45,478 nucleotides of DNA from Caulobacterales bacterium. Its GTDB lineage: Bacteria; Pseudomonadota; Alphaproteobacteria; Caulobacterales; Caulobacteraceae. Positions 1,554-39,116 of the stretch are shown piece after piece. The notes beneath the pieces were generated by a model. That model did not search any database and was not told the origin of the DNA. It saw only the letters and a list, made by a program, of their open reading frames with translations. The stretch's first letter is position 1. Each line of letters begins with the position of its first letter. The stretch covers positions 1 through 45,478 of the forward strand of contig CANJOB010000003.1 of NCBI GenBank assembly GCA_947475655.1. The letters run 5' to 3'. A program made the position numbers and the translations under genes.

Positions 1554-1660
1554 ATCATCAGGCGTCGCCGAGGCGCCCGCCGGAGACCCAGGCACAGCGT
1601 CGGCCGCCCATGATTTTGATGAGCATTGACGGGCTATTCCAAAGGAAGAAATGCAGATTT

Positions 1661-1690
1661 CGCATTAGGACATCCGTTATTATTGCTTTT
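1661..1690 (+). promoter_or_regulatory. Shared ~30-nt upstream motif, copy H
   Basis: CGCATTAGGACATCCGTTATTATTGCTTTT; aligns without gaps to six other upstream copies; ends 80 nt before ATG at 1771. Confidence 0.6.
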
Positions 1691-1770: not shown

Positions 1771-2691
1771 ATGAATCGCGCTGATCGGCAGACAGTCCAC
1801 GGCAAGTTCATGCTCGGCCTCGCCGCCGGGGCTGCGATCCTGGCGATCGGGGCTTGCGATCGCCTGGGCGGCGCTGAAGACCATCCGAACTTCAGCGGAA
1901 CCTGGGGCCCGAACCGGCCTGTGGTGAGCACGGAAACCAACATCGTCTCCGCCGGCGCCGGCAGCGGCGTGGAATGGGCGCCGATGAGCAAGGGCGCGCC
2001 GGAAACCCGCAAGCTGCCGACCGACGAGGAGTTGCGCCAGTCGACCCTCGACTACACCGAGAACGTTGAGAAGCTCGCCGTCCTGGACGATGACGCCCGC
2101 CTGGCCAACCGCAACACAAGGCCGCCGCCGTCCGTCACGCCCGCCGGCCTCGCGGCGCATACCCAGATCAACGCGGGCGAGTACATCAAGGACTACAACG
2201 AGCACTGCCTGCCCGGGAATGCTGTGGGCGGCATCCACGGAAGCTCGATGCAGATCGCCCAGCACGGCAACCTGATGATCATCGCCAGCGAGAACGGAAT
2301 CCCGCGCGTGATCTATCTGGACCAGCGCGACGACAGCAACGCCTTCCCCAACATGCGCGGCTATTCGATCGGCAAGTGGGAAGGCGACGAACTGGTCGTC
2401 ACCACCACCAAGATCGCCGGCAAGTTCATTCCGCGCGGCCTGCGCGACGGATGGCCGATGACCGAGAACATCGTCCTGACCGAGCGGTTCAAGCTGGGCG
2501 AGGACGGCAAGAGCATGACCATCAAACGGTATTTCGACGATCCCGCCTACTACACCGAGCGCTTCGGCATGATGACCTACTACGGCAAGCAGGAGCCGGG
2601 CGATCTCCTGATCACCCAGTGCATCGAGAGCCTGAGCGACCAGCCGTTCATCAGCGTCGCTGAGGACCTCAATGCCAAGCGCGGGAAATGA
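1771..2691 (+). CDS. Exported lipoprotein-like protein of 'HPDxSGxW' family, unknown function
   Basis: Signal with lipobox-like AIGAC; 'HPNFSGTWGPN', 'GYSIGKWEGDELVVTTTKIAGKF' shared with 20768 and 21691 paralogs. Confidence 0.85.
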   Translation: MNRADRQTVHGKFMLGLAAGAAILAIGACDRLGGAEDHPNFSGTWGPNRPVVSTETNIVSAGAGSGVEWAPMSKGAPETRKLPTDEELRQSTLDYTENVEKLAVLDDDARLANRNTRPPPSVTPAGLAAHTQINAGEYIKDYNEHCLPGNAVGGIHGSSMQIAQHGNLMIIASENGIPRVIYLDQRDDSNAFPNMRGYSIGKWEGDELVVTTTKIAGKFIPRGLRDGWPMTENIVLTERFKLGEDGKSMTIKRYFDDPAYYTERFGMMTYYGKQEPGDLLITQCIESLSDQPFISVAEDLNAKRGK

Positions 2692-3128
2692 TCATGAACA
2701 CCGGAAGGCGAAAGGTGACTTCGATGAAAACGAAAATCACGGGCTTGCTGGCCCTGGGCTTGGCCCTCGGCCTTGGCGCTAGCGCCAGCGCGCACCACTC
2801 AACCAACCTCTACATCGACGCTTCGAAGAAGCAGACGATCCAGGGAACCTTCGTGGCGCTGAAGATGGCTAACCCGCACGCCATCATCCAGCTGATGGCG
2901 CCGGGCAAGGGCGGCAAGATGGAGACCTGGGCGATCGAGACGCACGCGCCGGGCAGCTTGATCCGCCTGGGGTGGAAGCCCAATACCTTCCGCAAGGGCG
3001 AGAAGATCACCGTCATCGGCAACCCGTCGCGCAACGGCGACCCGTACATGAACCTGGTCGAGGTGGTCTTCGCCGACGGCTACAAGCTCAGCCCGGGCAT
3101 GGCCAACCGACCGCGTCCCGGCACCTAG
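2688..3128 (+). CDS. DUF6152-like small exported protein
   Basis: Internal ATG at 2724 gives clean signal peptide MKTKITGLLALGLALGLGASASA|HHSTNLYID; 'NPHAIIQL', 'GNPSRNGDPYMNLVEV'. Overlaps upstream stop. Confidence 0.85.
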   Translation: MIMNTGRRKVTSMKTKITGLLALGLALGLGASASAHHSTNLYIDASKKQTIQGTFVALKMANPHAIIQLMAPGKGGKMETWAIETHAPGSLIRLGWKPNTFRKGEKITVIGNPSRNGDPYMNLVEVVFADGYKLSPGMANRPRPGT

Positions 3129-3240
3129 ACGCATACTGGGAGGCGGCCGGGGGGCTGCCGGCAGCATTGGTGACGGGTCATCCGATCGCTCGCGGGCGCG
3201 CGTGCGCCGTCGGGCCTGCAATCTAAAGGGAGGCACTGCC

Positions 3241-3723
3241 TTGGAAGCCCTGGCGTCGCTCGAGAACTCAGCCGTGGCCCAGTTCATACTTGGCTACACC
3301 TGGGCCTTCTATGGGCTGCTCGCCGTGCACGCCTTCGGCATGGCCGGGGTCGTCGGCGGCTCGATCATGCTGAGTCTGCGGGTGCTGGGGTTCGCGGTCG
3401 GCGTCCCCGTCGCGGGCTTCGAATTCCTGAAGCGGGTCGCGGCGTGGAGCTTCGTCGCCAACGCCGGTTCGGGCATCCTGCTCTACTTCACCAACGCCAA
3501 GGCCCTGACCGTGCTCTGGACCTTCCAGATCAAGATGGCCAGCATCCTGCTGGGTGGGATCCTGCTTTGGGTCCTTTGGCGACAGATCAGCCCGTACAAG
3601 GCCGATGCCGACCACCGGTATGACGGCAAGGCCAAGGCTGTAGCAGCGGCGACCATTTTCTTCTGGATCGCCGCGATCGTTTCGGGCCGCTACATCGCCT
3701 ACACGCTTCCCGTGGGGTTTTAA
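3241..3723 (+). CDS. DUF6644-like integral membrane protein (first of pair)
   Basis: Likely TTG start at 3241 after AGGGAGG; ~4 hydrophobic segments; 'VHAFGMAGVVGGSIMLSLRVLG', 'WTFQIKMASI', 'SGRYIAYT'. Confidence 0.8.
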   Translation: MEALASLENSAVAQFILGYTWAFYGLLAVHAFGMAGVVGGSIMLSLRVLGFAVGVPVAGFEFLKRVAAWSFVANAGSGILLYFTNAKALTVLWTFQIKMASILLGGILLWVLWRQISPYKADADHRYDGKAKAVAAATIFFWIAAIVSGRYIAYTLPVGF

Positions 3724-3726
3724 GCC

Positions 3727-4227
3727 ATGTCGGAAACAGAATTCCTCGCCTGGGTCGGGCAGACGCCGCTGAGCGTCTTCATGGTGCAAACCCCGATCGC
3801 ATTCTCGGTTTGCGAGACACTACATTTCATCGGCCTGTGCTTGTTGATCGGCGCCCTGCTGATCGTCGATCTGCGCATGCTTGGCCTCATGCGGGTCATC
3901 ACGCTGCGCATGGCGCTGAAGTTCATCCCGATCGCGATCATCGGTTTTGTCATCAACGCCGTCACCGGCGTGATGTTCTTCACCTCCAATCCCCCGGGCT
4001 ATTGGACCAACTGGATGTTCTGGGTGAAGATGGCGCTGATCCTGGCCGCCGGCCTGAACGCCGTCTGGTTCGCGGTGTTCGAGGAGCGCAAGGTTCTGGC
4101 CGTGCCTCAAGGGAGCGACGTCGACCGCGCGACGAAGATCAGCGCCGGGCTTTCACTGGGACTTTGGCTGCTCGTGCTGCTGGCCGGTCGGCTGCTGCCG
4201 CTGACGCAGACGCTGGGCAACGGCTGA
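3727..4227 (+). CDS. DUF6644-like integral membrane protein (second of pair)
   Basis: 'CETLHFIGLCLLIGALLIVDLRMLGL', 'NWMFWVKMALIL', 'AGRLLP'; four hydrophobic segments. Confidence 0.85.
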   Translation: MSETEFLAWVGQTPLSVFMVQTPIAFSVCETLHFIGLCLLIGALLIVDLRMLGLMRVITLRMALKFIPIAIIGFVINAVTGVMFFTSNPPGYWTNWMFWVKMALILAAGLNAVWFAVFEERKVLAVPQGSDVDRATKISAGLSLGLWLLVLLAGRLLPLTQTLGNG

Positions 4228-6444: not shown

Positions 6445-9258
6445 TCAGAAGGCGAAGCGGATCCCCGCCTTGAAGGAGCGGCCGACCAGGTCGTAGACGT
6501 TGGTCGCGCCATTGGTGTTCATGGCGATGCTCGAGAATGCCGGCGGCTTCTTGTCGAGCAGGTTGTTGATCACGCCGAAGACCTGCAGCTTGCGCTGGCC
6601 GGTCAGCAGGTCGTACTGCGCCTGCAGATTGTAATAGACCGACTCCGGCCAGAGGTTCTTGTTGATGCTAAGCGCCGAGGTGGGGCTGTAGCCGTCGTCT
6701 TCGGGCCCGATCAGGTTGATATCGCCGCGCATCTTGCCGTTGTAGCGCACCTGCAGGCTGCCGAGGAAGCGGCCGAGCGCATAGGTCGCGGTAAAGTTGC
6801 CAGTCGACTTGGGTATGCCGTTGAGCGCGACGCCGACCCGGTCCAGCGGACCGACGGCGTCGGTCGTCGTCAGATCATGGACGAACGTGTAGAGCAGCCG
6901 CACGTCGAAGCGGCCGGGCAGGGCGCCCGGCAATTGATCGAGCGGGACGCGGTACTGGATGTCGACGTCGAGGCCGCGCGTGTGCAGCTTGTTGATGTTG
7001 AAGTTCTGCGTCCTGGCCAGGGCGATGCCGAACACCGTATTGTCGAAGGTGATGGTCGCGCAATACTCCGCCTGACCGGCGAAGCAGCGGTTGATGGCGT
7101 CCTGACCGCTCACCGAGCCGACGACGTCGTGGATGGTGATGTCGTAGAAGTCGAGTGAGCCACGCAGCCCCGCGGCCCAGCCGGTGGGCTGCACCACGAT
7201 TCCCGCGGTCAAGGTGTCGGCGATTTCCGGCGTGAGCAGGAGGTTGCCGGACGACCGCGTGGTCAGGTTGCCGATCTGGCCGTTGAAGGGATTCTTGTAG
7301 GAGGTCGCCGTGCCGATGGTGCCCGTGCCGAAACGCTCGTTGATGTTGGGCGCGCGGATGTCGCGCGACTGGGTCGCGCGGAAGCGTAGAGCTTCTATCG
7401 GCTCGTAGGTGAGACCGATCTTCCAGGTGTTGGCGATGCCGGAGGTGGAGTAGTCCGTGCGGCGGTAGGCGCCGTTGAGTTCGAGTGAGCGAGCCAGCGG
7501 CATATCGCGTGCGATCGGAACGCCGACTTCGACGAAGTACTCCTTCACCGTCTCCGACCCGCTGTAGGACTGGTTGTTGCCGAAGGTGAAGGGCGAAACG
7601 CCGCCCTGCGACAGCGGGTCGCCGACCCGGTCCAGCGACTGTTTGCGGTATTCGGCGCCGAGAGCCAACTGCACCTCGCCGGCCCAGGTCGACAGCGGCG
7701 ACCCGGAAATGCTGAACGCCGCGTTGTTGAGTTTGTTGGCGTCCCTCGTGGTCTGCTCGCGGGCGACGTACTTATAGGCCTCGGCCGAGGCGCGTCCGGT
7801 GCCGAAGATGTTGAACGGCACGCAACCGGGCACCACCAGGGCGGCCCGGGCGGCGGTTAGGTTCGGGTTACTGGCGACGGGCGCGCAGGCGGGCTGGCCG
7901 TTGGCGCCGGTGATCACATAGGCGGCCGCGAGGAAGTTGGGGTCGTGCGGCATATTGGTGTTCAGGAGGTGCTGCACCGTCTTGCCAGTCTGCACCGAAG
8001 CTTCCCAGCTCCAATCCTCGAACACCTTGCCTCTCAAGCCCGCCACGAAGCGATGGGTCTTGGTGGTGTTGTCGCTGTTCCAGGCGCCGAAGTCGGTGTT
8101 CCAGCGACCCACGTTGAGGGTGGTGACATTGGCCGCCACCATCGCCGCGCGCGTGGCGGCAGGCAGGAACGGATTGTCGCGCGAGACGATGATCGAGACG
8201 GTCTGCGGCGTGTTCGACTTGGCGCCGCTGTTGTTCAGATAGCCAAAGCCGCCCTCGATGAAGCCGGTGATGGTCGGGGTGAAATCGTAGGAGAGCCGCG
8301 CCATGCCGGCGCCGCGGGAGTAGGGATAGGAAAGCTGGTAGGAAGTGAATTGGTTGTTGCCGTAGTTAGCGTCGCTGCCGACCATCTGCGTGCCGAGCAC
8401 CGTGCCGTACTTGAAGGCGTAGGGCTGGCCGTTGGCGTCGAAGGCGGTGCCCTTCAATGGCCCGCTGGTGACGATGCTGCCCGGTGTGAGCGAAGACAGC
8501 TCCACACCCATCAGATAGCCCTGGGCGGGCACGCCCGCCGCGCGGGTGGTGCCGAACGGCACCAGGCCCGGTTCGGCCTTGCCGTAGTCCCGGGTATAGG
8601 CGCTGCCGGTGCCGTCGGTATCGCTGTAGTCGCCGCCGACGACCAGGCGCCCGCGGCCCTCGTTGAACTGCATGCCCGTGGCCAGGCTGACCGACCACTG
8701 CTCATTGTCGCCGCGCTCGGAGATGCCGTACTGGGCGTTGCCCTGCACGCCTTGGATGCGGTCTTTCAGGATGAAGTTGACGACGCCGGAGATGGCGTCC
8801 GAACCGTAGGCGGCCGAGGCGCCGCCGGTGACCACTTCCACCCGGTCGATCAGGCTGGACGGGATATTGTTGGAGTCGATGGTGTTGGTGATGGTGTTGG
8901 ACACCATGCGGCGGCCGTCCAGCAGCACCAGGGTGCGCGTCGACCCGAGGCCGCGAAGATCGAGCGGCGCCTGGCCGGTGGTGCCTGTGATGCCGCGGGT
9001 GTTGTTGGTCGGTCCGTTGACGCGGAAGCCGGGCAGTTCGTTGGTGATTTCCGACACGGCGGCGGGCGCACGTTGTTCGATCACCTGCGCTCCGAGCACC
9101 TTGACCGGGGTGGGAGCCGAGAAGCCGCTCTGCAGACGGCTGCCGGTGACGACCACTTCCTCGACCTGCGCCTCCGCGGCGGTCTGGGCCAGGGCGGAAT
9201 GTCCGCCCAGCAGTGCAAGAATCGAAGCCGAGGCCAACAGGCCAAATGAATAACGCAT
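6445..9258 (-). CDS. TonB-dependent receptor
   Basis: MRYSFGLLASASILALLGGHSALAQTAAEAQVEEVVVTGSRLQSGFSAPTPVKV; plug 'VVTGGASAAYGSDAISGVVNFIL'; C-terminal 'GRSFKAGIRFAF'. Confidence 0.95.
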   Translation of the reverse strand: MRYSFGLLASASILALLGGHSALAQTAAEAQVEEVVVTGSRLQSGFSAPTPVKVLGAQVIEQRAPAAVSEITNELPGFRVNGPTNNTRGITGTTGQAPLDLRGLGSTRTLVLLDGRRMVSNTITNTIDSNNIPSSLIDRVEVVTGGASAAYGSDAISGVVNFILKDRIQGVQGNAQYGISERGDNEQWSVSLATGMQFNEGRGRLVVGGDYSDTDGTGSAYTRDYGKAEPGLVPFGTTRAAGVPAQGYLMGVELSSLTPGSIVTSGPLKGTAFDANGQPYAFKYGTVLGTQMVGSDANYGNNQFTSYQLSYPYSRGAGMARLSYDFTPTITGFIEGGFGYLNNSGAKSNTPQTVSIIVSRDNPFLPAATRAAMVAANVTTLNVGRWNTDFGAWNSDNTTKTHRFVAGLRGKVFEDWSWEASVQTGKTVQHLLNTNMPHDPNFLAAAYVITGANGQPACAPVASNPNLTAARAALVVPGCVPFNIFGTGRASAEAYKYVAREQTTRDANKLNNAAFSISGSPLSTWAGEVQLALGAEYRKQSLDRVGDPLSQGGVSPFTFGNNQSYSGSETVKEYFVEVGVPIARDMPLARSLELNGAYRRTDYSTSGIANTWKIGLTYEPIEALRFRATQSRDIRAPNINERFGTGTIGTATSYKNPFNGQIGNLTTRSSGNLLLTPEIADTLTAGIVVQPTGWAAGLRGSLDFYDITIHDVVGSVSGQDAINRCFAGQAEYCATITFDNTVFGIALARTQNFNINKLHTRGLDVDIQYRVPLDQLPGALPGRFDVRLLYTFVHDLTTTDAVGPLDRVGVALNGIPKSTGNFTATYALGRFLGSLQVRYNGKMRGDINLIGPEDDGYSPTSALSINKNLWPESVYYNLQAQYDLLTGQRKLQVFGVINNLLDKKPPAFSSIAMNTNGATNVYDLVGRSFKAGIRFAF

Positions 9259-9433: not shown

Positions 9434-9463
9434 CAAATTGATATGTTCGGATGAGATAGTGCC
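9434..9463 (-). promoter_or_regulatory. Shared ~30-nt upstream motif, copy C
   Basis: On - strand: GGCACTATCTCATCCGAACATATCAATTTG; ends 175 nt before start codon of TBDR 9258. Confidence 0.65.
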
Positions 9464-9535
9464 TTTTTCGCATGATGGAGACCCGTGGCCGGCCTTGCGG
9501 GTTGACTGGGCATGCCGCGCGAAGCGCGGGTGTTC

Positions 9536-10483
9536 CTAGTCCGCGTTCTTGCGGCGTGGCGGCGCCTGGGCCAGCTCCAGCGGATCCTCCGGCGATGTCC
9601 GCCCCTTGGCCTCGTCCACCAGCCAGTTGATGAATTTCCGCAAAGCCGGGGCGGCCGTGATGCCCTCCGGCGCCACGACATAATAGGCCATCGGCGTCTG
9701 CAACGGCCGGTCGAACAGCACGACCAGGCTGCCGGACTCCAGTTCCGGCGTGGCCAGGAACAACGGCACCAGCGATACGCCAAGCCCCGCCACGGCGTGC
9801 TGGATCACCATTTCGAACTGCTCTAGGCGCGGACCGCGGAAGGCATTGGGAATCTGCAGTCCCGCGTCCTCATACCAGTCGGCCCAGGCGGTGGGCCGGG
9901 TGGCCTGGTGGATCAGTTGCGCGCGGCTCAGGTCGCGCGGCTCGCGCAGGTTCAACCGGTCGCGATACTCCGGCGTGACGACCGGGATCATGATCTCGTC
10001 GAACAGGTGGTGCGCCCGCGCGCCGGCCCAGTTGCCCGAACCGACGTGGATCGCCGCGTCGAACGGTTCGGCGGAGAAATCGAACATGGTCAGACGCGTG
10101 GAGAAGTTGATCGTGATCTCGGGGTGCTGCTTATAGAAGGCCGGCAGGCGCGGAATGAGCCAGCGTGTCGTGAACGCGGCGAGCACGGCGATGTTGAGGA
10201 TCGTCTCGGAGATCGGCGCAACCTGCTGCGACAGGTCGACCAGTTCCGACAACATGTCGCGGATCTTCACATGGTAGAGGCGCCCGGTGCCGGTGATCGT
10301 CACGCGCTTGCGGGCGCGTTCGAACAGCACCACGCCCAATTTGCGTTCAAGCGACTGTATGTGCCGGCTTACCGCGCTCTGCGCGAGGGCGAGTTCGATG
10401 GCGGCGCGCGTGAAGCTACCGTGACGGGCGGCGCTCTCGAAGGCCACCAGCTCGCTCATGGACGGAAGGGACTTACGCTGCAC
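9536..10483 (-). CDS. LysR-family transcriptional regulator (GcvA-like)
   Basis: N-terminal HTH 'LVAFESAARHGSFTRAAIELALAQSAVSRHIQSLERKLGVVLFERARKRVTITGTGRLYH'; downstream start possible at 10459. Confidence 0.93.
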   Translation of the reverse strand: MQRKSLPSMSELVAFESAARHGSFTRAAIELALAQSAVSRHIQSLERKLGVVLFERARKRVTITGTGRLYHVKIRDMLSELVDLSQQVAPISETILNIAVLAAFTTRWLIPRLPAFYKQHPEITINFSTRLTMFDFSAEPFDAAIHVGSGNWAGARAHHLFDEIMIPVVTPEYRDRLNLREPRDLSRAQLIHQATRPTAWADWYEDAGLQIPNAFRGPRLEQFEMVIQHAVAGLGVSLVPLFLATPELESGSLVVLFDRPLQTPMAYYVVAPEGITAAPALRKFINWLVDEAKGRTSPEDPLELAQAPPRRKNAD

Positions 10484-10498
10484 GGTCTATGCCAAAAT

Positions 10499-10529
10499 TG
10501 AATGCTGTCAGAAGGATATATTACTTTTC
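10499..10529 (+). promoter_or_regulatory. Weaker motif copy (G) adjacent to the LysR gene start
   Basis: TGAATGCTGTCAGAAGGATATATTACTTTTC; about 20/31 matches to copy A, pointing away from the LysR gene. Confidence 0.35.
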
Positions 10530-11567: not shown

Positions 11568-11975
11568 CTATTCGCCCTTTTCGAGCGTGCCGGCGGCCAG
11601 GTTGACCTTGCGGCCGTTGGGGAAGGTCAGCTCGCGCAGGAAGCCCTTGTTCGAGCCGTCACGCGACGGGTTGATGATCATGGAGAACTGATCACCGGCA
11701 ACGAGGACGTTGCGCTGGGTCAGGCCGGCGCGGCGCATGCCGTTCACATTCGAACTTTCGATTTCCCAAACCGACTGCTTTCCGTCCGGTCCGACGACGC
11801 GGAATTGGAACTGGCTGTGGGGGTTGATCATCTCCACCTTCACCAGGGCGCCCTTCATGGTCACGAACTTGTCGGCGACGAACGAGGCGTTCACCGCGTG
11901 GTGAGCGAGGGCGGCTCCGGCGGCCGCCAGAGCCGTGGCGGCTGCGGCGATCGCGATAAATCCAGATTTCCTCAT
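11568..11975 (-). CDS. DUF6152-like small exported protein
   Basis: Signal ...AAGAALA|HHAVNASFVADKFVTMKGALVKVEMINPHSQFQF. Confidence 0.85.
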   Translation of the reverse strand: MRKSGFIAIAAAATALAAAGAALAHHAVNASFVADKFVTMKGALVKVEMINPHSQFQFRVVGPDGKQSVWEIESSNVNGMRRAGLTQRNVLVAGDQFSMIINPSRDGSNKGFLRELTFPNGRKVNLAAGTLEKGE

Positions 11976-12902: not shown

Positions 12903-12932
12903 AAAAGTGATATGTTTCTATATACTGATGCC
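12903..12932 (-). promoter_or_regulatory. Shared ~30-nt upstream motif, copy E
   Basis: On - strand: GGCATCAGTATATAGAAACATATCACTTTT; ends 96 nt before start of gene 12806. Confidence 0.65.
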
Positions 12933-12991
12933 ATTTCGAGATGAACGACGGGCGCCGAGCGGCGAGCAGAGCCGATAAATTCATGCGTTTC

Positions 12992-13021
12992 CGGCATCAA
13001 TCGATAGAATCTTGTCACTTT
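12992..13021 (+). promoter_or_regulatory. Shared ~30-nt upstream motif, copy F
   Basis: GGCATCAATCGATAGAATCTTGTCACTTTT; ends 140 nt before ATG at 13162; diverges from copy E. Confidence 0.65.
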
Positions 13022-13161
13022 ACGAGCAGTGACGATTGGGTTCCCGTTCGGGTCAGGGAGGCCCAAGTCACAGAAATGCATACGACCTTCTCGTGGAGCC
13101 CCGGAGAGTCGCGCGTGCGACTGCGCCGCGCCGCAAAGATGACCAGCCGGGGCGGACGCTG

Positions 13162-13659
13162 ATGCCGCTTCTCGCCTGGCTTTACGAAACCAATATCTCG
13201 CACTGGATTCGCGAGTCCGTGTGGGGCCATCCCATCCTGCTCTGCTTACATGCCTTAGGTATGGCCGCCGTGGTCGGCGTGGTGCTGGTGCTGTCGATCC
13301 GGGTCGCCTTTGGCTGGCCGCGGAGCATCGCGCCGGCGTCCTACGGCGGGCTGCTGCAGGGAGCGCGCTGGGGCTTCCTGGCCAATCTGGCGTCGGGTGT
13401 CCTGCTATATATGAGCAACGCTCCGTCGCTGACGCTGAACTGGACCTTCCAGGCCAAGATCGCGCTGATCGTGGCGGGCGGCATTTCGATCCTGGTCGTC
13501 TGGCGGATGGTGACGGCGAGCCCGCCGGCCGCCGACGGGACGGCGCAGGCGGTCACCATCCAGGCCAGGACGGCGGCGGTGCTGACGATCATATTCTGGC
13601 TCGCGGCGATCCTGGCCGGCCGCTACATCGCCTACACCCTCAAGTACGTGAGCGTCTGA
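13162..13659 (+). CDS. DUF6644-like integral membrane protein (first of pair)
   Basis: MPLLAWLYETNISHWIRESVWGHPILLCLHALGMAAVVGVVLVLSIRVAFGW; 'NWTFQAKIALI', 'AGRYIAYT'. Confidence 0.85.
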   Translation: MPLLAWLYETNISHWIRESVWGHPILLCLHALGMAAVVGVVLVLSIRVAFGWPRSIAPASYGGLLQGARWGFLANLASGVLLYMSNAPSLTLNWTFQAKIALIVAGGISILVVWRMVTASPPAADGTAQAVTIQARTAAVLTIIFWLAAILAGRYIAYTLKYVSV

Positions 13660-13662
13660 GCG

Positions 13663-14157
13663 ATGAGCGTTGCACACTTCTACGACTGGGCTCACGACAC
13701 GGCGCTGGGCGAATTTATGCGCGCCGCCAGCTGGGCTTTCTCTGCCTGCGAGACGCTGCACTTCATGGGGCTATGCCTGCTGCTGGGCGCCCTGCTGGTC
13801 ATCGACCTGCGCATCCTGGGCTTCTATCGTCAGATCAGGATCGACTCGGCGATGAAGCTGGTCCCGCTGGCGGTCGCCGGCTTCGCGATCAACCTGCTCA
13901 CCGGCGTCTGTTTCTTCGCCTCCGACCCGTTCAACTACGGGACCAACTGGATGTTCGGGGTGAAGATGGTCCTGATCGTGCTGGCGGGGATCAACGCCAT
14001 CTATCACGAGGTCGCCTGCAAGGCGCGGCTGTGCGGCCTGCCCGAGGGGGTCGAGCCTGACCGCACCGCGAAGTTCGTCGCCGCCAGCTCACTGGTGCTG
14101 TGGACCCTGGTGATCATCGCCGGCCGGCTGCTGCCGCAGTTCGGCATCGAGGGATGA
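13663..14157 (+). CDS. DUF6644-like integral membrane protein (second of pair)
   Basis: 'ACETLHFMGLCLLLGALLVIDLRILGF', 'NWMFGVKMVLIVLAG', 'AGRLLP'. Confidence 0.85.
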   Translation: MSVAHFYDWAHDTALGEFMRAASWAFSACETLHFMGLCLLLGALLVIDLRILGFYRQIRIDSAMKLVPLAVAGFAINLLTGVCFFASDPFNYGTNWMFGVKMVLIVLAGINAIYHEVACKARLCGLPEGVEPDRTAKFVAASSLVLWTLVIIAGRLLPQFGIEG

Positions 14158-15077
14158 GCGGCCTGTTGGGGAAGCTCTGGGGGAAGACGGCGATGAAGCG
14201 TGGTCGATTTGGCCTGGGACTGGCGGTCGCCGCGGCGGCCAGTCTGGCGGCGGCGGGCTTCGTCGCGGCGCAAAATCCCCGGCCGACGACCGGCCTCGCC
14301 GATTTCCCCAAGGAGCCCTACGCTGGCGTCACGGTCATGCGCGACGTTGTCTATGGGCCGGACGCCAAGCACAGGCTCGACTTCTTCGCCGTCACCGCGC
14401 CACGCCGCGCGCCGCGCACCACGGTGATCTTCGTGCACGGCGGCGCCTATCGCGGCGGCGACAAGCACGCGCCGGGCAATTTCGACTACGAGAACATCAT
14501 GCTTTGGGCCAGGCGCGCTGGCATGATCGGCATCAACATGAATTACCGCCTGTTCGAGGGCGCTGGCTTCCCGGCGCAGGAGCAGGACCTGGGGACCGTG
14601 GTCCAGTGGGCCAAGGCCAATGTGGGGAAGTACGGCGGCGATCCCAACCGCATCTTCCTGTTCGGCCACTCGTCCGGCGCGGCGGTGGTGGCCAACTACG
14701 CCACCATGCCGCAGTTCAAACGCGAGCCGGCCATCCGTGGCCTGATCCTGCTGTCCAGCATCATGGACAACAACTACTACGACAAACCCTGGGCCTATTA
14801 CGGCGCCACCGACAAGAAGACGCTGGAAGCGCTCTCGCCGCAGACCAACCTGGCGAAATCCAGGATCCCGGTGCTGATGGGCCATGGCGACAACGACAGC
14901 GTCACTGTGTTGGCGCAGATGCCGGCCGCGCGGGCCAAGCTCTGCGCCGCCGGTCGCTGCCCGGACTTCGCCGTCACCCAGGGCGACCACGCCGGTGTCG
15001 CGCATGCGATTGGCGGCTGGGGCGGCGATCCGACCTTCGGCAACCGCGCCCTGGAATTCATCGGAAAAACACCATAG
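14154..15077 (+). CDS. Exported alpha/beta hydrolase (BD-FAE-like esterase)
   Basis: ATGA overlap with preceding stop; 'TTVIFVHGGAYRGG', nucleophile elbow 'GHSSG', C-terminal 'QGDHAGVAHAI'. Confidence 0.85.
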   Translation: MSGLLGKLWGKTAMKRGRFGLGLAVAAAASLAAAGFVAAQNPRPTTGLADFPKEPYAGVTVMRDVVYGPDAKHRLDFFAVTAPRRAPRTTVIFVHGGAYRGGDKHAPGNFDYENIMLWARRAGMIGINMNYRLFEGAGFPAQEQDLGTVVQWAKANVGKYGGDPNRIFLFGHSSGAAVVANYATMPQFKREPAIRGLILLSSIMDNNYYDKPWAYYGATDKKTLEALSPQTNLAKSRIPVLMGHGDNDSVTVLAQMPAARAKLCAAGRCPDFAVTQGDHAGVAHAIGGWGGDPTFGNRALEFIGKTP

Positions 15078-15152
15078 CGCGGCGCCCGCCTTCTGGCGGG
15101 CATGCTCGCGCAGCGACCGCCTAAACGGCGGCGCATCACAGGAGGAGACGAC

Positions 15153-17276
15153 ATGATCCGCACCAATCGACGTCTGGCAACCCTTGTCGCCGGCCTGCTG
15201 CTGGGGACCAGTCTGGCGGGGGCCGCCATCGCGCAGCCGCAGCCGCGCGTAGCCAACGGGATCACGGCGGGGAATGTCATCGTCGAGCCGCCGACCCTGA
15301 TCTCGATCGGGTTGGAATGGCCGATGGCCGGCGACGACAATCGCAACTCCTCGGTGGCCGTGTCCTACCGTAAGAAGGGCGATCAGGCGTGGAAGAATTT
15401 CCTGCCGATGCTGCGCACCCAGAACGAGGAGGTGCTGACCGCATTCCCGGGCACGTTCAAGACCGGCAACGGTTTTGTCGGCAGCATTTTCGACCTGCAG
15501 CCGGCCACCGATTACGAAGTGCGGCTGGTGCTATCGGATCCCGACGGTATCAAGGGTCAGGCTCAGAAGCTGGTGAACGTGCGCACCCGCGCCGAGCCGA
15601 TGCCGGCGGCGGGGGGCAAGACCTACCACGCCTATCCGGGCGACTGGAAAGGCGAGGTCATCCAGCCGGCGTTCTATGGGTTGTACGCGGCCTACTACAA
15701 CAACAGCGACGTCGGCTCGGAACGCTACAACGCCTATCCGGCGCGCGTGCAGCCGGGCGACACCATCCTGGTGCACGGCGGGCTCTACAAGGACCGGTGG
15801 GACGTCTACTGGACCACCTCCATGCCGGCCCCGGCCCCGGCCGACCACCGCGAATGCTGCGGCACCACGTTTGACGGCACCTACTACCTGACCGCCAGCG
15901 GCACGGCCGAGAAGCCGATCGTCATCAAGGCGGCGGGCGACGGCGAGGTGATCTTCGACGGCGGCGGCAACCACACCCTCTTCAACCTGATGGGGGCCAG
16001 CTACAACTATTTCGAGGGCATCACCTTCCGCAACACCAACGTCGCCATCGACGCCGGCAAGAAGCGGATCGCCGGCGGTGAAGGCCTGACGGTGAAGAAG
16101 TCGAAATTCCTCAACGTCGGCATCGGCATCTCGACCGACTGGTCGGGAGCGAAGAATTTCTACATCGTCGACAACGTCTTCGTCGGCAAACACAATCCGC
16201 GCGTCCTGGTGCCGTTCGACATCGACAGCGAGAACGGCAAGCGCTTCGCGGCCGACGGCGCCACCAACGACGACCGCAAGAACCTGTCCTTCGCCGCCAT
16301 CAAGATCTACGGCTCGGGCCACGTGATCGCGTACAACTCGTTCCGCAACTTCCACGACGGCGTCGCGCATACGATCTACGGCCTGCCGGACGGCTATCCG
16401 AACATGATCCGCGACCGCATGCCGGTGTCGAACGACTACTACAACAACGACATGTCCAACCTGCACGACGACTGTTTCGAGATCGACGGTCAGGTCTACA
16501 ACGTGCGGATTCTGCGTAACCGGTGCGTCAACGCCGCCGGTTCAGCCTTCAGCACCCAGCCGCTGTTCGGCGGCGCGGGCTATATCGTGCGCAACACGAT
16601 CTACAACGTGCCGGGCGGTTCGCGCGGCCTGAAGTTCGCCGGCTCCAGTGGCGAGCTGGTGTACAACAACACCTTCGTCAGCGCCGAGATCGTCGCGGGC
16701 GGCATCGGGCCGATCTCCAACGGTCACTTCCGCAACAACCTGGTGATCTCGGGCACGCCCACCAACGGCGCTTTCAGCATCGCCACGTTCACCGACTACA
16801 CGACGTCGGACTACAACGGGTTCATGTCCGGCGCCCAGGCCCGCAACCAGTTCGCCTGGCGCGGGCCCAAGCCGGGCATCCGCCAGAGCTATGAGGTGCC
16901 GGTGGAACTGCGCACGCCGGACAATGTGTATCCGGCCTATCAGATCGGAACTCAGCGCACCCGGCCGCAGCTGGTGAATGAGGGCCTGGTGCAGCAGAAC
17001 TTCCCGACCCTGGCCGCCTACCAGCAAGCCACCGGACAGGACCGCAACAGCCGACTGGTCGATCTGTCGATCTTCGAAAGCATGCGCATGACCGACTACG
17101 ATCATCCCACCCGTGTCTATGATCCGACCAAGATCGACTTCCGCATCCGCGCGGGATCTGCGGCGGTCGACGGCGGGACCATCCTGCCGGGGATCACCGA
17201 CGGCTTCGCCGGCGCCGCCCCCGATCTCGGCGCCGTGGAACAGGGGCAGCCCGAGCCGCATTACGGACCGCGCTAA
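15153..17276 (+). CDS. Exported right-handed parallel beta-helix protein
   Basis: AGGAGG before ATG at 15153; signal; repeats such as 'NYFEGITFRNTNVAID', 'YNNDMSNLHDDCFEIDGQVYNVRILRNRCVNAAGSAF', 'YNNTFVSAEI'. Confidence 0.85.
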   Translation: MIRTNRRLATLVAGLLLGTSLAGAAIAQPQPRVANGITAGNVIVEPPTLISIGLEWPMAGDDNRNSSVAVSYRKKGDQAWKNFLPMLRTQNEEVLTAFPGTFKTGNGFVGSIFDLQPATDYEVRLVLSDPDGIKGQAQKLVNVRTRAEPMPAAGGKTYHAYPGDWKGEVIQPAFYGLYAAYYNNSDVGSERYNAYPARVQPGDTILVHGGLYKDRWDVYWTTSMPAPAPADHRECCGTTFDGTYYLTASGTAEKPIVIKAAGDGEVIFDGGGNHTLFNLMGASYNYFEGITFRNTNVAIDAGKKRIAGGEGLTVKKSKFLNVGIGISTDWSGAKNFYIVDNVFVGKHNPRVLVPFDIDSENGKRFAADGATNDDRKNLSFAAIKIYGSGHVIAYNSFRNFHDGVAHTIYGLPDGYPNMIRDRMPVSNDYYNNDMSNLHDDCFEIDGQVYNVRILRNRCVNAAGSAFSTQPLFGGAGYIVRNTIYNVPGGSRGLKFAGSSGELVYNNTFVSAEIVAGGIGPISNGHFRNNLVISGTPTNGAFSIATFTDYTTSDYNGFMSGAQARNQFAWRGPKPGIRQSYEVPVELRTPDNVYPAYQIGTQRTRPQLVNEGLVQQNFPTLAAYQQATGQDRNSRLVDLSIFESMRMTDYDHPTRVYDPTKIDFRIRAGSAAVDGGTILPGITDGFAGAAPDLGAVEQGQPEPHYGPR

Positions 17277-17623
17277 GTGGATGAAGCGGTTCAGAACAAG
17301 CTTAAGTGAATATCTGCGCATTGCGTAGAACGCTGGAGAGAGCCGCGATACAATCTGTTTGGCCGATAGTAAGAGGCTCGCCATCATTATGCTTGTGTCA
17401 GTAGGAGGCCGCGTCGAGCCGAACGTGCGATTTCGGCCGCCGGCGAACGAAACGCCGGTGGTCGCCGCCGCAGCCTTCGATGTGTTTGGCCCTTGGTTCA
17501 CGAATGCTACGGCTGTTGCGGCGACAGCTTGGCGGAACTCGGCCCGAGATAGAAAAATTTCGGGAAATCAGCGTCTAAGAACCCGCAGCCTGCACGGGGG
17601 CGGGTGCGGATGGCGCCATAAAA

Positions 17624-17653
17624 GGCATGATTTCATCCAAACATATTGCTTTT
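17624..17653 (+). promoter_or_regulatory. Shared ~30-nt upstream motif, copy A
   Basis: GGCATGATTTCATCCAAACATATTGCTTTT; ends 55 nt before ATG at 17709. Confidence 0.65.
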
Positions 17654-17708
17654 CAGGACCTACCATCGCCGCACAGGTTGATCGGGTAGGGTGGGATTTT
17701 GGCGCTCA

Positions 17709-18986
17709 ATGAAGCCTTTGGATGATGTGAAGGTCGTCGACCTGAGCCGAGTTTTGGCTGGCCCCTGGGCCGGCCAATTGCTCGCTGACCTCGGGGCGGA
17801 GGTGATCAAGGTCGAGCGACCTGGCGTCGGCGACGACACTCGCGAGTGGGGCCCGCCTTATGCGGACTCGCCCGAAGCGGAAGCGCCGGGGGAGTCCGCC
17901 TATTTTCTCTCGGCTAATCGGGGCAAGCTCGGCATCGCCGTGGACTTCACCACCGAGGCCGGCCGCAAGGTGATCGAGCAGCTGGTCGCCCAGGCGGACG
18001 TGGTGCTGGAGAACTTCCGGGTCGGCCACCTGGCTAAGTACGGCCTCGACTACGCTTCCCTGGCCAAGGTGAAGCCGGACATCATCTATTGCTCGATCAG
18101 CGGCTTTGGTCAGACCGGACCCTATGCCCTGCGGCCGGGCTACGATTTCATCGTCCAGGGCCTGGGCGGGCTGATGAGCGTCACCGGCGTGGCCGACGGC
18201 CAGCCCGGCGGCGGGCCGCTCAAGGCGGGCGTGGCCCTGACCGACATCATGACCGGTCTTTACGCCGCCAGCGCGGTGCTCGCGGCCCTGCATCACAGGA
18301 ACCGCACTGGCCTTGGCCAGCATATCGACATCGCCCTGCTCGACGTGCAGGTGGCGACCCTTGCCAACCAGGCGCTAAGCTATCTCGTCTCCGGACGCAG
18401 CCCCGAGCGGATCGGCAACGACCATCCCAGCATTGTCCCCTACCGGACCTTCGACGCCCTCGACGAGCCGTTCAACATCGCCGTCGGAAACGACGCGCAG
18501 TTCGTCAAGGTCTGCAATATCCTGGGGCTGGATTCGCTGGGCGCGGACCCGCGTTTCTCCTCCAACGCCGCCCGCGTCCGCCACCGCGGCGAGCTGGTGC
18601 CGCTGCTGCAGGGGGCGCTGGCCACACGGCCTGCGGCGGAGTGGCTCAACCTGCTGAAAACTGGCGGCGTGCCGGCCGGACCGATCAATTCCCTGAAAGC
18701 CGTGTTCGACGATCCGCAGGTGAAGCATCGCGGGACACGGATCGACCTGCCGCACAAGACCCTCGGCACCGCGCCCGGCGTCGCTTGTCCGGTGCGGTTC
18801 TCGCAGGCCGAGGTCGGCTCAAAGATATCGGCGCCGGTCCTGGGCGAACACACGATCGCGATCCTGCAGGGGCGGCTTAAGCTCAGCCAGGCGGAGATAG
18901 ACGCCCTGATCGCCGCCGGCGCCGTGGCGGCCCATCCCGAGTACCTGGACGTCGACAAGACCAGAGCCACGCAGACCGCTGAGTAG
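17709..18986 (+). CDS. Family III (CaiB/BaiF) CoA-transferase
   Basis: 'MKPLDDVKVVDLSRVLAGPWAGQLLADLGAEVIKVERPGVGDDTREWGPP', catalytic-Asp context 'RPGYDFIVQGLGGLMSVTG'. Confidence 0.93.
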   Translation: MKPLDDVKVVDLSRVLAGPWAGQLLADLGAEVIKVERPGVGDDTREWGPPYADSPEAEAPGESAYFLSANRGKLGIAVDFTTEAGRKVIEQLVAQADVVLENFRVGHLAKYGLDYASLAKVKPDIIYCSISGFGQTGPYALRPGYDFIVQGLGGLMSVTGVADGQPGGGPLKAGVALTDIMTGLYAASAVLAALHHRNRTGLGQHIDIALLDVQVATLANQALSYLVSGRSPERIGNDHPSIVPYRTFDALDEPFNIAVGNDAQFVKVCNILGLDSLGADPRFSSNAARVRHRGELVPLLQGALATRPAAEWLNLLKTGGVPAGPINSLKAVFDDPQVKHRGTRIDLPHKTLGTAPGVACPVRFSQAEVGSKISAPVLGEHTIAILQGRLKLSQAEIDALIAAGAVAAHPEYLDVDKTRATQTAE

Positions 18987-19036
18987 ACAGGGCGAACCTG
19001 AGCGGGCACGCTGCAAGAAATAATCGGGGGGATAAG

Positions 19037-20440
19037 ATGCCGAAGCCAACCAAGACCGTCGCGGCGCCCGCTGCGAGCGAGGGCTCCGGCGCGGCGCCGA
19101 TCAAGGTCGGGGTCTACAGCTACTACGTCCTCGCCGTCCTGCTGCTGATCTACATCGTCAACTTCATCGACCGCACGATCCTCAGCATCGTCGCCCAGCC
19201 GATGAAGGAGGAGCTGGGCCTAGCCGACTGGCAGCTTGGCGTACTCAGCGGCATCGCCTTCGCCGTCTTCTACGTGGTCATGGGCGTTCCCGTGGCGCGG
19301 CTGGCCGAGCGGCGTAACCGGGTGAAGATCATTTCCGGCCTGATCGTCATCTGGTCGATCATGACCGCCGTGTGCGGGCTGGCGCAGAATTTCACCCAGA
19401 TTCTACTGGCGCGTTTTGGTGTCGGCGTCGGTGAGGGCGGCTGCTCGCCCGCCTCGCACTCGATCATCGCCGACTATTTCCCGCGCAAGCAGCGCTCCTT
19501 CGCCCTGTCGCTCTATTCGATGGGCATCCCCGCCGGCGCCCTGTTCGGGGCCCTGATCGGCGGCTGGACGGCGCAGCACTTCGGCTGGCGCATGGCGTTC
19601 ATGGTGGTGGGCCTGCCGGGCCTCCTGCTGGCTCTGCTGATGTTGACGATCCGTGAGCCGCTGCGGGGCCGGTTCGATCCGGTGGCCTCCACTGAAGCAC
19701 CATCGCTGATGGACGCGCTCAAGCTGCTGGCCCGCAAGAAGACCTTCGTGCACATCTGCATCGGCGCGACCCTGGCCACCTTCGCCAACTACGGCATCTC
19801 CTCCTTCGCCGTGCCCTACCTGCTGCGCGGTTTCGACATCAAATTGGCCGCCGCCTCCTCCGGCTACGGCCTGGTCACCGGCATCGCCGCCGTATTCGGC
19901 GTGGCCCTGGGCGGCTGGCTGGTCGACCGTTTCGGCGCCAAGGACCGGCGCTGGTACACCTGGATCCCGGCCATCGGCGTGGCGCTGTCGACGCCGCTCT
20001 ACATCCTGACCTTCGCCCAGACCAGCCTGGTCGCCCTGGCCAGCTTTGTGGTGCTGCCGGCGATCATCCACTACCTGTACATGGGTCCGACCTACGGCCT
20101 GACCAGCAACCTGGTCGAGCCGCGCATGCGCGCCACGGCCGCGGCCATCCTGCTGTTGTTCATGAACCTGTTCGGCCTGGGGTTTGGTCCGACCGTCGTC
20201 GGGATATTGAGCGATATCTTCGCCAGCAATGCCTACGCCGGCCAGTTCCTGACCGACTGCCCGGGCGGGATCGCGCCCGCCGGTTCGGCGGCGCCTGCGC
20301 TGGCGGCGTGCAAGCTGGCCTCGTTCACCGGCCTGAAATACGGAATGTATGTCGCCGCCGCCGTCTACCTCTGGTCGGCCGTGCACTACTTCCTGGCCGC
20401 GAAATCCGTCACCGCGGACCTCGCCGTCTACGATCACTAG
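19037..20440 (+). CDS. MFS transporter (spinster-like)
   Basis: 'YIVNFIDRTILSIVAQPMKEELGLADWQLGVLSGIAFAVFYVVMGVPVARLAERRNRVKII', 12-helix hydrophobic pattern. Confidence 0.9.
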   Translation: MPKPTKTVAAPAASEGSGAAPIKVGVYSYYVLAVLLLIYIVNFIDRTILSIVAQPMKEELGLADWQLGVLSGIAFAVFYVVMGVPVARLAERRNRVKIISGLIVIWSIMTAVCGLAQNFTQILLARFGVGVGEGGCSPASHSIIADYFPRKQRSFALSLYSMGIPAGALFGALIGGWTAQHFGWRMAFMVVGLPGLLLALLMLTIREPLRGRFDPVASTEAPSLMDALKLLARKKTFVHICIGATLATFANYGISSFAVPYLLRGFDIKLAAASSGYGLVTGIAAVFGVALGGWLVDRFGAKDRRWYTWIPAIGVALSTPLYILTFAQTSLVALASFVVLPAIIHYLYMGPTYGLTSNLVEPRMRATAAAILLLFMNLFGLGFGPTVVGILSDIFASNAYAGQFLTDCPGGIAPAGSAAPALAACKLASFTGLKYGMYVAAAVYLWSAVHYFLAAKSVTADLAVYDH

Positions 20441-20540
20441 CCTTGCGGCGGCCGGGTTTTCCGGCCGCCCAATATTCTCAAAACCGCTGAATAGCGCGCT
20501 CAATCGGCGGATCGGACTGCGCGCGATACCATACAGTTAT

Positions 20541-20570
20541 GGCATCAATTCATCGCATAAAAGCACTTTT
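20541..20570 (+). promoter_or_regulatory. Shared ~30-nt upstream motif, copy D
   Basis: GGCATCAATTCATCGCATAAAAGCACTTTT; ends 197 nt before ATG at 20768. Confidence 0.6.
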
Positions 20571-20767
20571 AACTATCGTGCGGGCAATGCACCGTTTTGC
20601 CAGCAACACGAATTCTTCGACCAGCATGCTGAGGTGACCAATACAGGACCTAGTGCGCGGCCGGTAAAATCCTAGAAGTTGCGACCTTCTACGCTTCGCG
20701 CGCAGCCAGATACACACTCAACATGCGTAGACACAAAAGCAATATGACTGCAGCAGGGAGGAAAATC

Positions 20768-21694
20768 ATGAAGATGTCCGGTGCGACAGCCGTGCTCACG
20801 GGGGTGGCGATCGCCGTGGTCGTGGGCGCTATCGCGTTCGTAGCGACGCCCGCGCCCACCATCCGAGCCATGGCGGCGGCGAAGGACTCGCACCCGGACT
20901 TCTCCGGCTCCTGGTGGCCGGGGCCCGAGGGAGAGTCGCCCACGAACCTCGTCGCCTTGGGCAACCCGAAGAGTATCGGCTGGGCGCCGCTGAGCCAGGG
21001 CCTTCCCGAGAACCGTAAGCCGCCGACGCCGGAGGAACTGCAGGCCAACGCGCTTAAGTCCGAGGCGCGGTTCGAAAGCCTGGCGGTGACTGACGACCTG
21101 ACCCGGCTGGCCAACGCCACCGGCGCGCCGCCGCCCGCGACGACGCCGGAAGGCGACAAGCGCTACAAGGAATTGAGCACCGGCACCTACGTCAAGGATT
21201 ACAACGAAGCTTGCATGTCCCCGACGGTGATCAGCGGCCTGATGCGCGACTCGGCCGACATCGTGCAGACGCCGACCAAGCTGGTCATGCAGAGCGACAC
21301 CGGGTTCACCCGGACGATCTATATCGACGGCCGCGACGACAGCAAGGCCATCCCCAGCATGTTCGGCTATTCGGTCGGCAAGTGGGAGGGCAAGACCCTG
21401 GTCGTCACCACCACCAACATCGCGGGCAAGTTCATCGCCGCCGGCCTGCGCAACGGCTGGCCGCTGTCCGAGAACGCCAAGCTGACCGAGTGGTTCTCGA
21501 TCACGCCGGACGGCAAGACCCTGGCGATCAAGCGCGTCTTCGAAGACCCATTGTACTACAAGGAGCCGATCGGCTCGATGATGTACTTCGACAGATCGCC
21601 CGATGATCTTTTCGTGTCTCCGTGCGTCGAGGGACTGGCCGACCAGCCCTACAAGCAGGCGTCCGAGTCGCTCTACAAGAGCCTGGGCAAATGA
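20768..21694 (+). CDS. Exported 'HPDxSGxW' family protein (tandem copy 1)
   Basis: MKMSGATAVLTGVAIAVVVGAIAFVATPA signal; 'HPDFSGSWWPGPEGESPTNLVAL', 'GYSVGKWEGKTLVVTTTNIAGKF'. Confidence 0.85.
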   Translation: MKMSGATAVLTGVAIAVVVGAIAFVATPAPTIRAMAAAKDSHPDFSGSWWPGPEGESPTNLVALGNPKSIGWAPLSQGLPENRKPPTPEELQANALKSEARFESLAVTDDLTRLANATGAPPPATTPEGDKRYKELSTGTYVKDYNEACMSPTVISGLMRDSADIVQTPTKLVMQSDTGFTRTIYIDGRDDSKAIPSMFGYSVGKWEGKTLVVTTTNIAGKFIAAGLRNGWPLSENAKLTEWFSITPDGKTLAIKRVFEDPLYYKEPIGSMMYFDRSPDDLFVSPCVEGLADQPYKQASESLYKSLGK

Positions 21695-22635
21695 TCCGAC
21701 TCTCAGCACCTCAAGGGCCGCCCGGCGCCCGCCTTTCGGGAGCCATGTACATCGTCTTGCTCGTTGCGACCTCCGCATTGACGGTCGTTGCCGCGCCGAT
21801 GGACCACGCCATGGCGCAAACCGGAGCAGGACACCCGGATTTTTCCGGATCCTGGTGGCCGGGCCCGGAGGGCGAATCTCCGACCCACATTGTCGCCTTG
21901 CGTAATTCACGGAGTATCCCCTGGGCGCCGCTAAGTAAGGGGCTCCCGGAAAACCGCAAACCACCGACCGACGCTGAGCGCGCCGCCGTCGCGCTCAGCA
22001 GCGAAACCCGCTACACCGCCCTGGCCGTGACCGACGACCGGACGAGGCTGGCAAATCTGACCGGTCAACTTCCCCCCGCGCTCACACCGGAAGGCGATCA
22101 GCGCTATCGCGAACTGAGCGCCGGCACCTACGTCAAGGACTACAACGAAGCTTGCCTGGCTCCCAACGTCATCAGCGGCCTGGCGCGCGACTCGGCCGAC
22201 ATCGTGCAGACGCCGACCAAGATCGTCATGCAGAGCGACCTTGGTTTCACTCGCACGATCTGGATCGACGACCGTGACGACAGCAAGGCCATCCCCAGCA
22301 TGTTCGGCTATTCGATCGGCAAATGGGAGGGGCAAACTCTCGTGGTCACCACCACCAACATCAGCGGCAAGTTCATCGAGTCCGGACAGCGCAACGGCTG
22401 GCCGCTCTCGGAAAACGTCAAACTGACTGAATGGTTTTCGCTGTCGCAGGACGGCAAAACCCTGTCGATCAAGCGCATCATGGAAGATCCGCAGTATTAC
22501 ACGGAGCCCCTCGGCTCGATGATGTCTTTTGAAAAGACGCAGGATGATCTTTTCGTATCGCCCTGCGTCGAAGGCTTGGCAGACCAACCTTACAAGCAGG
22601 CCTCAGACGACCTCTACCAAGCTCTCGGCAGATGA
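21691..22635 (+). CDS. Exported 'HPDxSGxW' family protein (tandem copy 2)
   Basis: ATG overlaps stop of copy 1 (ATGA); 'HPDFSGSWWPGPEGESPTHIVAL', 'GYSIGKWEGQTLVVTTTNISGKF'; very close to copy 1. Confidence 0.85.
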   Translation: MIRLSAPQGPPGARLSGAMYIVLLVATSALTVVAAPMDHAMAQTGAGHPDFSGSWWPGPEGESPTHIVALRNSRSIPWAPLSKGLPENRKPPTDAERAAVALSSETRYTALAVTDDRTRLANLTGQLPPALTPEGDQRYRELSAGTYVKDYNEACLAPNVISGLARDSADIVQTPTKIVMQSDLGFTRTIWIDDRDDSKAIPSMFGYSIGKWEGQTLVVTTTNISGKFIESGQRNGWPLSENVKLTEWFSLSQDGKTLSIKRIMEDPQYYTEPLGSMMSFEKTQDDLFVSPCVEGLADQPYKQASDDLYQALGR

Positions 22636-22679
22636 GCGGCCACCGTTTTTCGCATTTCGCAAACTAGGGAGATTGAGAC

Positions 22680-23078
22680 ATGAAGCGGGCTATTATCCTC
22701 ACAATTGCCGCCCTGGCGATACCGCAGTTCAGCCAGGCCCACCATTCGACCAACCTGTACGTCGATGTCTCCAAGAAGGTGTCGGTGACGGGCGAGTTCG
22801 ACAGCTTGAAGCTGGTCAACCCGCACGCGCTGCTGATGTTCTGGGCGCCCAACGCCAAGGGCGAGCGGGTGTTGTGGTCGGTGGAAACCCACGCGGCCGG
22901 TAACATGATCCGCCTCGGCTGGCGGCCGCAGATGTTCAAGCGCGGCGAGAAGATCACGGTGACGGGTAATCCGTCCCGGAACGGAAGCCCGTACCTGAAC
23001 CTCGTCGAGGTCGTTTTCGCCTCGGACGGATATCACCTGAGCCCGCAGAAGGCGAACAAGGCGCGGAAACCTACATAG
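22680..23078 (+). CDS. DUF6152-like small exported protein
   Basis: MKRAIILTIAALAIPQFSQA|HHSTNLYVDVSKKVSVTGEFDSLKLVNPHALLMFW. Confidence 0.88.
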   Translation: MKRAIILTIAALAIPQFSQAHHSTNLYVDVSKKVSVTGEFDSLKLVNPHALLMFWAPNAKGERVLWSVETHAAGNMIRLGWRPQMFKRGEKITVTGNPSRNGSPYLNLVEVVFASDGYHLSPQKANKARKPT

Positions 23079-23182
23079 CCCGTCTCTAGACGACGTCGTC
23101 CACGGCTCAAGACCGCGTATCGTGCAACGTTACGCGGCGGGCGGGGTGCTGCCTTAAGAAACGAAACATTGGGGGGACCGCC

Positions 23183-25996: not shown

Positions 25997-26135
25997 TTTA
26001 GCGCTGTCGTTTCGCCGCGCTGAACGGGCGCCGTCCTGAGTCACCGCCAAGGGCCGCAGAGCATCCGGCCCGAAGCCAGACACTCAGGGCGGCCCTCAGT
26101 TTCACCGGCGGGCGCAGAACCTCGAGGGGAAGGCC

Positions 26136-27157: not shown

Positions 27158-27542
27158 ATGCGCATGTCTCTGAAACTCGCCGCCTGCGCTGTCCTGCTGA
27201 CCGCCGGCGCGGTCACGCCGGTGTCGGCGCATCACTCCGCCGAGGCCGCCTACGACATCAACAAGACAGTGACCTTCGAAGGCACGCTGCAGCGGATCGA
27301 CTGGATCAATCCGCATGTCCTGTTCCACGTGGTTCAGACGGGGCCGGGCGCCCGCACCACCGCCTGGACGGTGGAGGCCAATCCGCCGCGCGGGCCTGGC
27401 CAAGAAGGATTTCGACGGCGCGATCGGCAAGAAGGTGACGGTCGAGGGCTGGCCGGGCCGCAACGGGCGCAAGATCGCTTATTTCCAGGTACTGAACTTC
27501 CCTGACGGCCGCCACATCAGCTTCAAACGCGCCAGCAGATAG
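27158..27542 (+). pseudogene. DUF6152-like protein gene with apparent +1 frameshift near 27395
   Basis: First frame: MRMSLKLAACAVLLTAGAVTPVSAHHSAEAAYDINKTVTFEGTLQRIDWINPHVLFHVVQ...WTVEANPPRG; family-like continuation LAKKDFDGAIGKKVTVEGWPGRNGRKIAYFQVLNFPDGRHISFKRASR* is in the next frame. Confidence 0.75.
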
Positions 27543-27552
27543 GGAGCTTGAA

Positions 27553-28347: not shown

Positions 28348-28378
28348 CCCGGCCCCCGCGATCCCGGAGGCTGCGCTG

Positions 28379-30571: not shown

Positions 30572-30709
30572 GCGGACGCTCGGGGCTGTGGGAGGGCTCG
30601 ATTAAGGCGTTTGATAAACGAACGCGCGGGCGATATCCAACAGGGACGCGGCGCCGCCGCCCATACGACGACCAGCCCAAGAACGCTGGCGCAGCCGCAA
30701 GGGGAAGCA

Positions 30710-32026: not shown

Positions 32027-32160
32027 TCGCGCATCCGCTCGAGGGCCCGCGCGAACGACGCAGACCAGCGATCGCCCTCGCTTCGCCGCGGCCCGGTCTC
32101 GGTGAACACGCTTCAGGACATGCGCGGTCCGTGCAGAGCCATGCGGATGATTGCTAATTC

Positions 32161-32190
32161 CGCATGATCTCATCCGAAGATAGTAATTTC
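32161..32190 (+). promoter_or_regulatory. Shared ~30-nt upstream motif, copy B
   Basis: CGCATGATCTCATCCGAAGATAGTAATTTC; ends 171 nt before ATG at 32362. Confidence 0.65.
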
Positions 32191-36412: not shown

Positions 36413-36532
36413 GAGCTTGCCGTCCTCTTCCCGGGTTCGCGGGCAGGATAGCCCATCGATGGGCCGCCCGCGAGGTGGCCGCTAGGTAGGGGGCGTGTAT
36501 CATCGGCGCAGCGCCGAGTACGGAGACCAGGG

Positions 36533-37633: not shown

Positions 37634-37640
37634 CGGCAAA

Positions 37641-37670: not shown

Positions 37671-37700
37671 GATCGTTGTCTGCAGTCGTTTGGCGCTGGC

Positions 37701-39104: not shown

Positions 39105-39116
39105 GTCCGTCCTCCT

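Follow-up and report, generated by a model that had tools for sequence, protein, structure and literature searches.

A GcvA/GcdR-like LysR regulator as the probable reader of a shared 40-bp operator in a TonB-receptor-rich catabolic cluster

Several operons in the stretch of DNA analysed here (45,478 nucleotides, referred to as the window) are preceded by one and the same element of about 40 bp, which raises the question of which protein reads it and to what effect. We propose that a GcvA/GcdR-like LysR regulator encoded within the window very probably reads this operator before seven operons and before its own gene, as the local switch of the cluster. Sequence statistics support the motif, its first box, the pairing of regulator and motif, and the confinement of the motif to the cluster. 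Systems of this kind are ordinary, but the link between regulator and motif is unusually firm for one drawn from sequence alone. An uncharacterised catabolic cluster rich in TonB receptors thereby gains a regulator and an operator that can be put to the test, and a simple reporter could be used to seek the inducer and, via the inducer, the substrate.

Gene content, regulator and operator copies

The window is a complete contig of a draft genome (2.88 Mb, 239 contigs, 83% complete), and its gene content reads as that of an uptake-and-catabolism cluster rich in TonB receptors. A domain search placed TonB-dependent receptors at 1-1489 (truncated at the contig end), 9258-6445, 23183, 32362 and 42023-39117, and Pfam identified among the other products three DUF6152 proteins, DUF6644, alpha/beta hydrolases, a CoA-transferase, MFS transporters, acyl-CoA dehydrogenases, an FAD-binding monooxygenase-like protein and an amidohydrolase. 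The regulator is the following gene:

9536..10483, minus strand: LysR-type regulator, 315 aa, GcvA/GcdR-like (Pfam HTH_1 and LysR_substrate; NCBIfam GcvA; PDB 8y6u)

Both of its Pfam domains, the N-terminal HTH_1 (E=4.3e-19) and the C-terminal LysR_substrate (E=5.7e-32), score above the gathering threshold, and the GTG at 10483 is the longest possible start because an in-frame TAG lies immediately upstream. The GcvA subfamily of NCBIfam (PRK11139) is the nearest curated family and the GcvA structure 8y6u (E=4.6e-48), as best match in the PDB, the nearest solved structure; on the other hand, the subfamily score of 275.6 bits stays under the cutoff of 288, and no gcv genes were recognised by Pfam in the window. 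No divergent gene lies beside the LysR gene, which is followed on that side by a terminator-like sequence and then a same-strand gene. The earlier note had described this LysR gene as the only regulator gene of the motif-bearing region, and Pfam bears this out for the interval between the first and the last operator copy (1.6-32.2 kb). A TetR-family regulator (TetR_C_24, with weak FadR-like NCBIfam matches) is encoded outside that interval at 42200-42802, with genes for a TonB receptor and for an acyl-CoA dehydrogenase next to it, and the right-hand side of the contig may form a separate part under its control. Genes of similar catabolic flavour at 27523-32026 and 35243-45478 carry no operator copy, and are either subject to other control or members of another cluster.

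The motif search was seeded with the sequence upstream of the receptor gene at 9258, and similar stretches were refined to eight copies of a 40-bp element, all of them intergenic. Seven are strong, lie upstream of operons (about 40-200 bp from the start codons) and share an identical orientation relative to the downstream gene, and a weaker one is found at the LysR start. The approximate consensus, in gene direction, is ATGC-N7-GCAT-N6-ATCC-GAACATA-TCAC-TTTT. The copies are listed below, with presumed extents for the seven operons.

1651..1690, plus strand: operator of operon 1771-4227 (+), box ATGC-AGATTTC-GCAT
9434..9473, minus strand: operator of the TonB-receptor operon 9258-4310 (-), box ATGC-GAAAAAG-GCAC
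10489..10528, plus strand: operator at the LysR start, box ATGC-CAAAATT-GAAT adjoining the LysR start codon, TTTT end facing away from LysR
12903..12942, minus strand: operator of operon 12806-10672 (-), box ATCT-CGAAATG-GCAT
12983..13022, plus strand: operator of operon 13221-17276 (+), box ATGC-GTTTCCG-GCAT
17614..17653, plus strand: operator of the CoA-transferase/MFS operon 17691-20440 (+), right part strong, left half-site degenerate (CGCC)
20531..20570, plus strand: operator of operon 20723-27146 (+), TonB receptor included, box ATAC-AGTTATG-GCAT
32151..32190, plus strand: operator of the TonB receptor 32362-35178 (+), box TTGC-TAATTCC-GCAT

That a shared motif exists, as had been claimed, is confirmed by leave-one-out matrices, with which every held-out copy remains one of the eight best-scoring positions in the window. 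Six copies exceed the maxima of simulated intergenic DNA of equal size by a wide margin, whereas the LysR copy (25.2 bits, with 21.3 as the highest value among 60 simulated intergenic sets) and the 12983 copy (23.6 versus 18.6) do so narrowly. The weaker sequence beside the LysR start had been placed at 10499-10529; the copy itself is real, but it occupies 10489-10528, and position 10529 relates to the end of the motif rather than of the gene. A profile of the eight copies, searched against the whole genome, returned exactly those eight, with the next match at E=4.8; since it was trained on them, the absence of further copies is the informative part, and at 83% completeness copies may also lie in the missing DNA. 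An exact-type motif search in 298 other genomes of the family gave no match, which says nothing on diverged versions, and inspection by eye of the sequence downstream of the operator sites found no conserved promoter elements.

The three DUF6152 proteins (2688-3128, 11568-11975 and 22680-23078) each lie inside a presumed operon with an operator, and no mention of this family was found in the literature searched. Three paralogous proteins without a Pfam match (1771-2691, 20723-21694 and 21622-22635; about 306-337 aa, 45-72% identity to the first) are encoded first, or close to first, in operons under the motif; used as a probe for the same cluster in the contigs of other genomes, they retrieved remote relatives only.

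Box structure of the operator

When the aligned copies and 30 bp of flank were scanned exhaustively for dyads, one ranked clearly first, ATGC-N7-GCAT, with four-base arms and a seven-base spacer. It has the form T-N11-A and is present in seven of the eight copies. The dyad sits at the outer edge of the motif, and its left arm falls beyond the block that had been used for finding the copies. The LysR box had previously been sought at T5-N11-A17, a register whose place in the present alignment is approximate: inside the motif three offsets of T-N11-A compete, each in 5/8 copies and none in excess of what column composition predicts, and this candidate was rejected in favour of the box at the edge. 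Similarly, the partly palindromic core ATGA-nn-TCAT proposed in the earlier note is real at 32151 (ATGA-GA-TCAT) and 17614 (ATGA-AA-TCAT), but is no general feature of the copies.

A second box (ATCC-N7-TCAC, then TTT) may lie 21 bp further toward the target gene. Scored as T-N11-A alone in the window set, it was seen 5 times versus 5.2 expected; as this is not above column expectation, we call it the looser box, on the basis of an ortholog alignment, in which two orthologs (L040 and L042) read ATTC-N7-GAAT and then TTGC-N7-GCAA, and of the GcdR footprint described below.

Read in reverse, the palindromic box within the 12983 copy is likewise followed by a partial operator (12958-12997; GAATTTATCGGCTC), so that both divergent operons may be served from here.

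Conservation of the regulator-motif pair

LysR orthologs with 43-49% identity were found in some members of the family and in alphaproteobacteria of other families, and their co-occurrence with the motif, a check suggested in the earlier note, was examined in both directions. In the forward test, a matrix trained on the seven target copies, without the one at LysR, was run over 17-kb or 4-kb loci around the orthologs. In other genera and families, its top or near-top match adjoins the gene start of most LysR orthologs; in many loci this match ranks first among about 34,000 positions. Because intergenic DNA near LysR starts is AT-rich, the columns of the matrix were permuted 500 times; the permuted matrices scored moderately well at the ortholog starts, and none (0/500) reached the combined score, within the family set and in the other-family set alike. 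The loci are partly non-independent, several being from one genus, and the other-family set passes alone. A few orthologs (L037, L056 and L062) have no clear site.

The reverse test is the stronger of the two. Here the matrix was derived only from the LysR promoters of the orthologs, with a generic ATNN-N7-NNAT box, which is present at most ortholog starts, as the anchor. With it, the eight sites of the window rank 1-6, 8 and 11 of 90,878 positions, which none of 1000 permuted matrices matched (0/1000), and rank 1 belongs to the copy at the LysR start. A stricter profile from the ortholog LysR promoters gave a single genome-wide match at E<=10, the copy at 32151 (E=0.47), and within the window it recovers some copies only. 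Of eight genomes with an ortholog that were searched, six have practically no site besides the one at the LysR promoter; those promoter sites had belonged to the training set. The element thus accompanies the LysR gene through genomes in which its neighbours differ, the signature of a regulator's own operator. The two reciprocal tests with their permutation controls, and the occurrence of the motif on this contig only, support the assignment of the motif to LysR made in the earlier note, although the argument given there, from T5-N11-A17 and ATGA-nn-TCAT, is not the right one.

The LysR paralogs of the same genome (L002 and L003; 34% and 30-31% identity) have no motif nearby. No second genome with both a close LysR ortholog and the same cluster was found (best identities 47% in the family sample and 49% in the class sample); a protein scan of other genomes' contigs for either yielded nothing, and 74 other genomes of the genus contained one ortholog, at 44%.

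Predicted mode of regulation and related systems

In the standard LysR scheme, one box is occupied permanently and the occupancy of the promoter-proximal part depends on the ligand. Applied to this locus, LysR would act as a dedicated regulator of the uptake-and-catabolism cluster that binds the operator of two boxes; the ATGC-N7-GCAT box would hold it permanently, the promoter-proximal part would differ in occupancy with and without ligand, and the paired boxes would correspond to the arrangement expected for a LysR tetramer. A compound of the pathway would bind the sensor domain, upon which the seven operons would most likely be activated, given that the second box always lies toward the gene and the sites some 40-200 bp upstream of it. 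We infer activation over repression from the habit of the family and from site orientation.

GcvA-type regulators are capable of both activation and repression. That LysR binds these same sites and mainly represses until the inducer comes, a variant in which the sign alone differs, is accordingly worth keeping in mind, if unlikely: the site that abuts the LysR start codon is in a repressing position for that gene, whereas the sites of the target operons, with their distance and second box, have the usual activator arrangement. For the LysR gene itself, 10489-10528 is probably an autoregulation site, as previously suggested, in view of its leave-one-out score, its rank with the ortholog-only matrix and the matches at the equivalent place in most orthologs; with the operator ending six bases from the start codon, binding there would most likely limit LysR synthesis.

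A copy at the LysR promoter would also be expected if LysR were just a target of another regulator, such as the TetR protein encoded on the same contig beside the receptor gene at 42023 and an acyl-CoA dehydrogenase, or one encoded elsewhere. We consider this very improbable, since the TetR gene has no copy in its vicinity (10 kb separate it from the last one), the LysR-start element is conserved with LysR in genera and families with quite different neighbours, and the dyad, T-N11-A with N7, has LysR format. Less probable still is a promoter element (alternative sigma factor) or other structural cis-element in place of a classical operator, which would suit seven strong upstream copies in constant orientation, but not the variable spacing between element and start codon (about 40-200 bp), the LysR-format dyad inside, the persistence of the element beside LysR in relatives or the confinement of the genome's copies to the cluster.

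Among the closest described systems is GcdR of Pseudomonas putida, a tetrameric LysR activator of glutaryl-CoA dehydrogenase, encoded by the adjacent gcdH (PMC6667623). The GcdR footprint holds 5'-GTGACAAAATATCAC-3', that is AGTGA-N7-TCACT with the spacer CAAAATA (PMC6667623). Compared by eye, its T-N11-A resembles the right-hand part of the operator (AACATATCACTTT), a candidate AAATATCACT-type half, and the CAAAATA-TCGC of the orthologs. The likeness is one of footprint and ortholog neighbours. Many orthologs are divergent from genes that, judged from N-terminal residues, are similar to glutaryl-CoA dehydrogenase (an acyl-CoA dehydrogenase; L031, L056, L057, L060 and L063) or 2-oxoadipate dioxygenase (L054, L055 and L061); by the same reading, an FAD oxidoreductase is divergent in most orthologs of one genus and an aminotransferase-like gene in L032. 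In contrast to GcdR with its adjacent gcdH, the regulator described here has no divergent partner and its site is found on seven operons of an unrelated cluster. PheR of Sphingobium is likewise a single local regulator of both uptake and catabolism, but is described as a repressor with phenanthrene as substrate (PMC13273656), whereas activation is proposed for the present LysR.

This LysR is probably a cluster-specific activator with an expanded regulon, whose divergent partner is missing here. As orthologs do have such a partner, a single-target regulator may have turned into a whole-cluster switch: a tentative scenario, to which we give somewhat less than an even chance, is that it lost its divergent metabolic gene and became the master switch of a seven-operon cluster, with half-sites changing from ATTC/GAAT to ATGC/GCAT and its own promoter (ATGC-N7-GAAT) as the intermediate. 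The locus would then possibly be a readable case of a regulon that began at one divergent promoter and grew to take in a whole cluster.

In several orthologs, for instance L048 (about 8604-8620, in LysR-minus orientation), the likely start codon abuts or overlaps the T-N11-A box, an arrangement that would fit a leaderless LysR transcript.
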